Source: Xylophilus sp. GW821-FHT01B05
GTDB taxonomy: Bacteria; Pseudomonadota; Gammaproteobacteria; Burkholderiales; Burkholderiaceae_C
DNA: 64,000 nt
Reading direction: 5' to 3'
NCBI GenBank assembly: GCA_038961845.1
Contig: CP152408.1
Span: forward strand, 5,766,001 to 5,830,000
Numbering within the stretch: position 1 is the stretch's first letter; each line of letters opens with the position of its first letter. The position numbers and the translations under genes were made by a program. The notes under the pieces were generated by a model. That model worked only from the letters and a program-made list of their open reading frames with translations. It did no database searches and was not told where the DNA came from. This document shows, piece by piece, positions 59,998-61,440 of this stretch.

Positions 59998-60552
59998 ATG
60001 CTCGATCTCTCCGTCCACGATTACCTGAAGCAGCACATCCGTACCGTGCCCGACTGGCCCGCGCCGGGCGTGCAGTTTCGCGACATCACGCCGCTGCTGC
60101 AGGACCCGAAGGTGTTCCGGGTGCTGATCGACGCCTTCGTGCACCGCTACATGGACCGCGCCATGCGGCCCGATGTGGTCGCAGGCTTGGACGCGCGCGG
60201 CTTCATCCTGGGCGCGGTGATCGCCTATGAGCTGGGCGTGGGCTTTGTGCCGATCCGCAAGAAAGGCAAGCTGCCCTTCACCACGGTGGAAGAAACCTAC
60301 GAGCTGGAATACGGCAGCGCCACGGTCGAGCTGCATGCCGATGCGGTCAAGCCCGGTGACCGCGTGCTGCTGGTGGATGACCTGATCGCCACCGGCGGCA
60401 CCATGATGGCCGGCAAGAAGCTGCTGGAGCGCCTGGGCGCCACGGTAGTGGAAGGCACCGCCATCGTCGACCTGCCCGAACTAGGCGGCTCCGACCGCCT
60501 GCGCGAGTCAGGCCTGCCCCTGTTCACGCTGGTCGACTTCTCCGGCCACTAA
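59998..60552 (+). CDS. apt: Adenine phosphoribosyltransferase
   Basis: 184 residues, close to the usual Apt length. Type I PRTase motif [14 protein letters not shown] (PRPP loop), [14 protein letters not shown] and [29 protein letters not shown]. It salvages adenine to AMP. The TAA stop (60550-60552) is also the left target repeat of the palindromic element that follows; the element therefore did not alter the protein. Confidence 0.95.
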
Positions 60553-60821
60553 GAACGTGTTTACGATCTCTATGGGGTCGCGCAAGTGTCTTTGCGGGAT
60601 GGGATGCAAGGCGCGGTGCGCAGCCAATAGCACGGCTATTGGCAAGCGCCGCAACGCCGCAGACCGCCCGCAAAGACACTTGCCCTTCGGGTTGGAGTGA
60701 AATCGGGCGATTGAGCGCCCCGGCCCCTTGCATGGGCATTAGCCCATGCGGCGGGATCCGGGCCACCCACTCATCCCGATTGCACTCCAACGCGATCCCC
60801 ATACAGATCGCAAACACGTTC
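60553..60821. mobile_element. 269-bp MITE-like element with nested palindromes and TAA duplication
   Basis: Terminal inverted repeats of about 30 bp (GAACGTGTTTACGATCTCTA at the left; the right end differs by two changes and one indel) are flanked by TAA on both sides (60550-60552, 60822-60824). Inside are two arms. Arm A: a perfect 16-bp stem CAAGTGTCTTTGCGGG (60583-60598) with 60667-60682, and an inner 9-bp hairpin GCCAATAGC/GCTATTGGC. Arm B: 17-bp stem (60691-60707 with 60775-60791, one mismatch) and inner hairpin GCATGGGC/GCCCATGC. No coding capacity. The TNA-type duplication fits IS5-family transposases acting in trans (inference). Confidence 0.75.
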
Positions 60822-60939
60822 TAAGCAAAGCCAGCGCGCGCCAAACCCAAGGATGCCGTGGAACCGGCTTTGCCGGGCCACAGGCACGCCCCCGGAAGGG
60901 GTTGGCGGCCACACGAAGTGGGCAAGCCTGGGGGTGAAC

Positions 60940-61440
60940 TCAAACCGCCGCGACGCGCCGCCGCCGATTCGCCAGGCGCTTGGCCAGCACCGCACCTGCC
61001 GCCAGCAGCAGGTTCACCGCGATCTCTGGCTGCCGGTGCGTGAGCTCGGTGAAGCGCAGCGGCGACAGGCCCCAGAGCCGGCATTCACTGCCGGCCTGCG
61101 CCGTGGCGCTGCGCGGCCGGTGCGAGAAGAAGGCGCTTTCCCCCAGCAGCGAGCCCGCGCCGACGATCGCCAGCCGCAGGCGGCCGGCATGGTCTTGGGC
61201 GTGCACGCTCAGGCTGCCTTGCTCCACGAAGTACAGGGTGCGGTCGTCCGAGCCTTCGGCAAACAGGGTCTGGCCCTGCGCCAAGTGGCAGGGCTGCAGG
61301 TAAGGGGCGAGCGTCTGCCACTGAGACGGCGAGAGCTTGTCGGCGAGAACGTCCTCGCCCTGGGCCAGGGCGATGGCGTCAATCAGGCCTTGCAACAAAG
61401 CGCTGGAGGAGCCTAGGGCGGCGGTGATGGATCCTTGCAT
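60940..61440 (-). CDS. Cyclic nucleotide-binding domain protein without DNA-binding domain
   Basis: 166 residues. A cNMP-binding beta-barrel covers about residues 45-140 (YLQPCHLAQGQTLFAEGSDDRTLYFVEQGSLSVHA, GAGSLLGESAFFSHRPRSATAQAGSECRLWGLS). The chain ends in LLAAGAVLAKRLANRRRR without the Crp helix-turn-helix. It may sense a nucleotide or serve as a stand-alone regulator; the function is unknown. The 60825-60939 stretch before it contains a partial copy of the CCCCC...GGGGTTGGCGG repeat. Confidence 0.88.
   Translation of the reverse strand: MQGSITAALGSSSALLQGLIDAIALAQGEDVLADKLSPSQWQTLAPYLQPCHLAQGQTLFAEGSDDRTLYFVEQGSLSVHAQDHAGRLRLAIVGAGSLLGESAFFSHRPRSATAQAGSECRLWGLSPLRFTELTHRQPEIAVNLLLAAGAVLAKRLANRRRRVAAV

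Follow-up and report, generated by a model that had tools for sequence, protein, structure and literature searches.

The element at the apt stop codon

The window analysed here is a stretch of 64,000 nucleotides from Xylophilus sp. GW821-FHT01B05 (contig CP152408.1). It includes an open reading frame of 184 amino acids with a phosphoribosyltransferase domain, in line with apt, and the stop codon of this frame is the TAA that borders a short non-coding element on its left side. The features of the locus, with the evidence for each in brackets, are as follows.

59998..60552, plus strand: apt, the upstream neighbour, with a phosphoribosyltransferase domain (open reading frame, domain match)
60550..60552, plus strand: left target repeat TAA, which is the apt stop codon (sequence, open reading frame, flanks of copies)
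60553..60821, plus strand: whole element, two-arm type, 269 bp (direct reading, fold, 20 genomic copies)
60553..60577, plus strand: left terminal inverted repeat, GAACGTGTTTACGATCTCTATGGGG (sequence, copies)
60582..60683, plus strand: arm 1, a 17-bp outer stem closing the conserved core (DNA fold)
60606..60660, plus strand: conserved core, GCAAGGCG...CAACGCCGC, around an apical stem-loop that varies (pattern and model)
60683..60691, plus strand: inter-arm link, CCCTTCGGG (sequence)
60692..60790, minus strand: arm 2, at the position of the inverted second core in other two-core elements (fold, model)
60797..60821, minus strand: right terminal inverted repeat (sequence, copies)
60822..60824, plus strand: right target repeat TAA (sequence, flanks of copies)

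The first-pass annotation had placed a 269-bp element here with TAA on both sides and near-identical inverted ends, all of which matches a direct reading of the sequence, and it was right that the insertion at the apt stop codon is neutral to the apt protein. The sole open reading frame of at least 80 amino acids across the element is a minus-strand frame of 97 amino acids, which covers the palindromes and extends into the flanking DNA. Folded as DNA, the element reaches -100.3 kcal/mol; its shuffled versions average -51.9 (sd 3.7), which gives z -13.0, and none of 200 is as good. The fold consists of a stem formed by the terminal inverted repeats and two arms, in each of which an outer stem leads into an inner hairpin of 9 bp; the outer stem measures 17 bp in arm 1 and 9+7 bp in arm 2. 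The stems of 16 and 17 bp and inner hairpins of 9 and 8 bp given earlier were thus correct to about one base pair.

Two further observations were made around this locus. A second place in the same genome (G000:C1:1245333-1245787) matches window positions 60101-60555, the 3' part of apt, at 91% and is either a second apt-like gene or a duplication. Just downstream of the element, at 60856-60940, lies a separate repeat of about 85 bp that has many copies, occurs in all seven genomes of the genus that were searched, and stands in tandem at G000:C1:3624013-3624585. Compared by description with the Betaproteobacterial repeat element BRE, as presented in the available part of its report (PMC3110155), this repeat fits in size, tandem habit and hosts.

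A mobile family with TNA target repeats

The genome, a single contig of 5.83 Mb, contains 20 full-length or nearly full-length copies of the element, 259-280 bp long and 89-100% identical (one of them, L014, was matched at element positions 6-264). TNA stands on the left of 16 of the 20 copies and on the right of 15, and eight have identical TNA on both flanks; wherever the same three bases flank a copy on both sides, they are TNA. With identical flanks at eight of 20 copies, many target repeats are decayed or never matched. Truncated copies are also present, together with five armless palindromes of about 50 bp that are two terminal inverted repeats joined (G000:C1:357924-357975, 874276-874326, 1706551-1706601, 1936756-1936806 and 4292951-4293000) and one more of about 40 bp. 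The palindromes of about 50 bp probably arose from the 269-bp element by internal deletion. A full-length copy of 76% identity resides on a plasmid of Comamonas odontotermitis.

Empty sites were sought in six relatives of the same genus, and the 3' part of apt was matched in three of them (G001, G003 and G004) among the matches listed; in all three, apt is without the element and followed by other sequence. The description MITE-like in the first-pass annotation had been staked on further copies with conserved ends and on empty sites in close relatives. Copies with conserved ends exist, TNA target repeats accompany them, and in three relatives apt lacks the element, so this description is borne out. 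Being short and non-coding, with terminal inverted repeats, multiple dispersed copies, target repeats and an empty site in relatives, the 269-bp element is a MITE, unable to move alone.

By a rough call of open reading frames, seven of the 20 copies abut a stop codon exactly. TAA and TGA are themselves of the form TNA, and this placement could thus result from TNA targeting plus survival in GC-rich DNA.

A core common to elements with different ends

Inside arm 1 lies a core of approximately 55 nt, in which GCAAGGCG and CAACGCCGC enclose a variable stem-loop, and this core is common to elements whose ends differ. In the same-genus genome G004, 40 places match element positions 41-120 only, and their ends are quite different (GGCAACGCTGAATAAGTC type); G001 shows a third kind of element ends around the core. 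The first-pass annotation had proposed that selection acts on folded DNA or RNA beyond the transposon ends, and a structured core retained between different ends agrees with that proposal. The core pattern occurs once in the window (0.00 expected) and 19 times in the genome, 17 of these in the 269-bp family, while the reversed-pattern control gives none. The covariance-model match is broader than the core, covering 60592-60674 with 74.5 bits. The link CCCTTCGGG, or CCCGAAGGG, also stands 3' of arm 1 in several other elements, as judged by eye and uncounted. Among the 20 copies of the genome itself, the core letters show 0.18 differences per column against 1.13 elsewhere, a constraint that is not significant in this set (21% of same-size window pairs are as quiet).

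Named genomes gave at least 121 matches to the core pattern in at least 119 stretches, and 78 of the 121 listed have a length of 52-58. These 78 were compared with the other 43 among the listed matches without a folding filter. Watson-Crick pairing reaches 60% against 31% in the first six positions of the upper stem and 61% against 27% in the outer stem; G.A/A.G cells outnumber C.T/T.C cells by 89 to 10 in the 78, with 34 to 30 in the other 43. Since the length classes differ in pairing, the named-genome set is a mixture of true cores and chance matches. A scan of viral sequences gave at least 120 stretches, and among the 80 run against the model six loci matched, with seven hits; most viral pattern matches are therefore chance. 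A phage origin was set aside, there being no sign of a phage feature.

Covariation and strand-specific pairs in the core

Alignment A1 holds 53 of the 61 cores that passed a folding filter. One duplicate of L088 was removed (the genome of L088 is labelled Burkholderiaceae, Burkholderiales, the same family as that of the window), as were seven cores judged to be chance or degenerate matches (L066, L084, L111, L114, L146, L173 and L181); the genome of L066 later gave eight model hits, so the removal of at least this one may be wrong. The core covaries in this alignment: 81.6% of cells pair against 55.5% when shuffled, with a filter that included the outer stem and that the upper stem entered through its folding energy only. 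Cells changed on both sides number 412 against 169 shuffled, and the covariation score is 0.585 against 0.157 shuffled and at most 0.21 slid; none of 500 shuffles is as high in any of the three measures. Pairs with a change on both sides amount to 20 of 26, no higher than in shuffles (19.8), and six pairs are invariant because the search pattern fixes them.

A larger set of 270 distinct cores came from a less strict search, for CNAGGCG...CAACG together with an outer stem, among loci other than L274-L303, and it still includes some chance matches. Here the tandem 5'GA/5'GA occurs in register 76 times, in 53 cores, whereas re-pairing of strands between the cores (200 trials) gives a mean of 19.3 and a maximum of 33, in a control that ignores relatedness and with related cores counted several times. 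The mirror tandem 5'TC/5'TC is absent from all 270. Counting every cell, G.A/A.G stands at 201 against 52 for C.T/T.C, and G.T shows no excess over its mirror A.C (116 against 112). Within the 269-bp family of the genome itself, G.T against A.C is 28 to 5 in arm 1 and 26 to 28 in arm 2. A signal read in duplex DNA would treat both strands alike and the G.A tandems are on one strand only; it therefore seems that a folded single strand, either RNA or single-stranded DNA, is under selection.

The core model was trained on choices made with the exact pattern, which biases its E-values and the apparent conservation of letters, and the unfiltered and non-exact sets correct for this in part. In 100 chosen loci the model gave 131 hits, 44 of which lack the exact pattern. 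All 44 keep the A, the first G and the C of AGGC, the first A and the second C of CAAC, along with one other G; these letters seem to be kept beyond the needs of pairing, subject to the bias that training on them gives the model. Opposite the first G of AGG, the same 44 hits have 19 C, 12 A, 9 G and 4 T, so that its partner is free, and a plain GGCG:CGCC helix is thus wrong in part as a description of the core.

Geometry and distribution of core elements

An outer inverted repeat was located for 152 of the 270 cores by a search favouring neither size. The geometry of these elements is fixed. Their lengths are bimodal at about 165 and 270 bp, with 67 at 150-179 bp, 71 at 260-289 bp, 11 between and three outside, in a tally that counts copies of one family several times, and a distance of 53-59 bp separates the left end from the core in 130 of the 152. 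Long elements often carry a second core on the other strand. Among 28 close core pairs, 26 run plus then minus and 24 are spaced 100-109 bp; in seven further genomes, a count made with G054 left out, all 21 pairs run plus then minus at 105-108 bp. As the second core is inverted, a correct core lies in the 5' half of a two-core element whichever strand is read. Arm 2 of the window element is not recognisable as a core; under the core model it reaches 8.3 bits, which is fifth-ranked and not significant. A different arrangement was seen at L121, on a contig labelled Mariprofundales, where closely spaced cores, at distances of 122 and 165 bp, share one strand; the genome of this locus has 81 core-model matches.

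With the covariance model R1, matches were obtained in 65 of 100 genomes from the family of the window (E<=1e-4) and in 59 of 249 from its phylum, Pseudomonadota (E<=1e-5). All 30 genomes reached through core loci, which were chosen for holding the core pattern, are hit as well, with 1 to 148 matches each. By record label, cores occur in eight phyla: Pseudomonadota, Actinomycetota, Bacillota, Planctomycetota, Acidobacteriota, Elusimicrobiota, Thermodesulfobacteriota and Verrucomicrobiota. Named strains outside Pseudomonadota belong to Actinomycetota (Streptomyces, Pseudonocardia, Rathayibacter and others) and Bacillota (Anaerobium) only, and the remaining phyla rest on metagenome bins, where mis-binning is possible.

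A probable link to IS5-family transposases

The first-pass annotation had pointed to an IS5-family source with the same ends. The TNA targets agree with this, and we take such a target to be of the IS1031 type, within the IS5 superfamily. An IS with the ends of the element itself was not found in the genome at up to 3 mismatches in 23; pairs of terminal inverted repeats were spaced at only about 269 or 50 bp there. Among the fetched loci, ten weak spans with up to three mismatches per end were considered as autonomous ISs with the ends of the window element and were judged by eye to be chance.

Support for an IS5-type source is indirect. PF13340, an IS4/5-type transposase domain, matches in 25 of 100 genomes of the family, 22 of them above the cut-off, and some of the 30 PF13340 loci that were fetched end like core MITEs, for example with GAGCGTGTTATG or GGGCCTGTTAAC. 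In G080, another genome of the family, an IS of about 830 bp (L292, positions 944-1770) and a core MITE (L232) have CTAGGGCCTGTTAACAC at all four of their ends. The IS has two overlapping transposase frames in different reading frames, an arrangement that presumably resembles that of ISs using a programmed frameshift. Against an IS5-family model of NCBIfam, the larger frame scores 130.7 bits (cut-off 110) and the smaller 100.1, just below. An IS5-family transposase on an IS with matching ends was thereby seen for GGGCCTGTTAAC ends, in G080, and not for GAACGTGTTT ends. The IS and the MITE of G080 are alike over the terminal inverted repeat only, by which a copying of the outer stem from an IS end was rejected. 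Since the core model matches just one of the 30 PF13340 loci (L298, whose transposase match is below the cut-off), such ISs do not usually contain the core.

Orientation of the core to genes and replication

Around the 20 copies in the genome itself, ten upstream genes read in along the core strand and 11 downstream genes read back, with some frames open at the element edge included in this count. G028 and G004 were taken as single-core sets, from L219 and L031 respectively. In G028, 28 genes run along the core strand and 20 against it (17 upstream reading in, nine downstream reading back); the figures for G004 are 14 and 17 (six and eight). These modest numbers come from a rough gene caller on 37 of 37 loci of G028 and 28 of 30 of G004, with a gene call in only part of them. 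No clear bias in the orientation of the core to flanking genes appears in the three sets, with G028 leaning along transcription, and this absence of bias is a weak argument against a cis role in host mRNA. A role as folded single-stranded DNA or cruciform, or as an RNA made by the element, is compatible with these data. Relative to replication, the core strand is leading in 35 cases and lagging in 53 (p 0.07), with the origin assumed at the contig start and G054 left out.

Proposed mechanism and alternative explanations

We consider it fairly probable that the element is an IS5-superfamily-type MITE mobilised in trans and that it belongs to a class with a conserved single-strand core which aids movement or persistence. 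A DDE transposase would act on the ends of about 25 bp and insert the element at TNA, sometimes at stop codons, and an IS5-type transposase may well be what moves this very family. The class would be large, with members either of about 165 bp and one core or of about 270 bp, often with two inverted cores about 106 bp apart, and its members, despite their differing ends, would have in common a conserved single-strand fold at about 54 bp from the end. The core itself may act as single-stranded nucleic acid in folded form, with a widespread factor recognising it, and it would help the element to move or persist. The level at which it does so is a more tentative matter. There is no clear direction to genes, and two-core elements offer a correct core in the 5' half on either strand; for these reasons we lean, with low confidence, to action on DNA, with the strand exposed in replication, transfer or cruciform extrusion, rather than in host mRNA.

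A bolder reading, which we hold to be possible rather than probable, makes the hairpin core and not the ends the lasting replicator. The core would be a structured mobile nucleic acid found across phyla, adopting the ends of any IS5-like transposase that is available, and its folded single strand would be recognised by a conserved cellular or transposase factor.

Rather unlikely, in our estimate, is a role in RNA, in which the core would fold in read-through transcripts and bind a universal RNA factor (RNA polymerase, an RNase or some other), through which, for instance, the mRNA would be stabilised or the insertion kept non-polar. The larger number of G.A pairs on one strand than of their mirror pairs would fit this, as would the correct core that a transcript of a two-core element has in its 5' half, whichever strand is transcribed, and the 17 genes reading in against nine reading back in G028, a single-core set. 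According to the available part of PMC10969869, transcripts with Correia or ERIC elements are reported to be processed by RNase III and RNase E. What speaks against the RNA role is that no clear excess of genes runs along the core strand in the own copies, G028 or G004, and that no Rfam family matches the core at gathering score. In Rfam 15, the region 60400-61000 of the window gives two matches at E<=1 that fall far short of gathering, and the sole gathering match in 19 core loci is cspA, elsewhere in L097. An identity with a curated Rfam RNA family was accordingly rejected for the window region and these 19 loci.

Descent might also explain the core by itself, if one old MITE had spread vertically and horizontally, its ends had been replaced by drift or recombination, and the core were simply the part that has not yet changed. 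The families do have core and geometry in common, and MITEs are held to move in trans by IS transposases in the available parts of two reports (PMC10969869, PMC3189936). We find this account improbable, because outer stems and ends differ while the core letters stay, because 412 cells changed on both sides where shuffling gives 169 (though six pairs are fixed by the pattern), and because drift does not explain G.A tandems on one side only. Palindromes can correct themselves by template switching during replication, which gives compensatory changes without selection. Such an artefact would suit the joint change of both terminal inverted repeats at several positions within the genome, and it is very unlikely to account for the core, whose bulges and G.A mismatches persist across phyla although self-correction should remove them.

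Comparison with known systems

Riboswitches, ribozymes, attC (weighed by eye), HEARO and similar structures were considered by their general features and rejected for want of a match. Integron attC sites have RYYYAAC/GTTRRRY core boxes and a cassette context. Eukaryotic Tourist and PIF-Harbinger MITEs have IS5-related transposases and three-base targets of the TNA type, as the present element does; we know of no such core in them.

A core shared by MITEs with different ends is not described in the literature searched, which lay mostly outside subscription journals. A known family such as YPAL, ERIC, nemis or MITEPsy1 may hold such a core. MITEPsy1 of Pseudomonas syringae, as described in the accessible part of PMC3189936, is like the element in being short and non-coding, with terminal inverted repeats, a target repeat and an IS5-like transposase acting in trans; by the same description it differs in its length of 100 nt, its 18-nt repeats and its 4-nt target, CTAG or YTAA. 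REP sequences and REPINs (PMC3733652, PMC3116915, in the parts available) are likewise dispersed palindromes, the REPINs being doublets. REPs measure 20-40 bp and are tagged GTAG or CGTC, whereas core elements have terminal inverted repeats and are mostly of 150-179 or 260-289 bp (138 of 152), and a REP/REPIN identity was rejected on size. Nemis/Correia, ERIC and other stem-loop repeats are also short, intergenic and foldable; they are families of particular genera or groups, and the available portions of their descriptions, on which this comparison rests, mention no core between families (PMC2267715, PMC10969869, PMC3110155).

If the preferred reading of a trans-mobilised MITE with a conserved core is true, one covariance model would be a handle for finding such MITEs in bacterial genomes, and the question of why bacterial MITEs are hairpins would become testable by mutating one 55-nt core. 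MITEs are commonly regarded as IS remnants without a transposase; a strand-specific fold common to MITEs with differing ends across phyla would mean, if true, that the interior of the MITE is functional.
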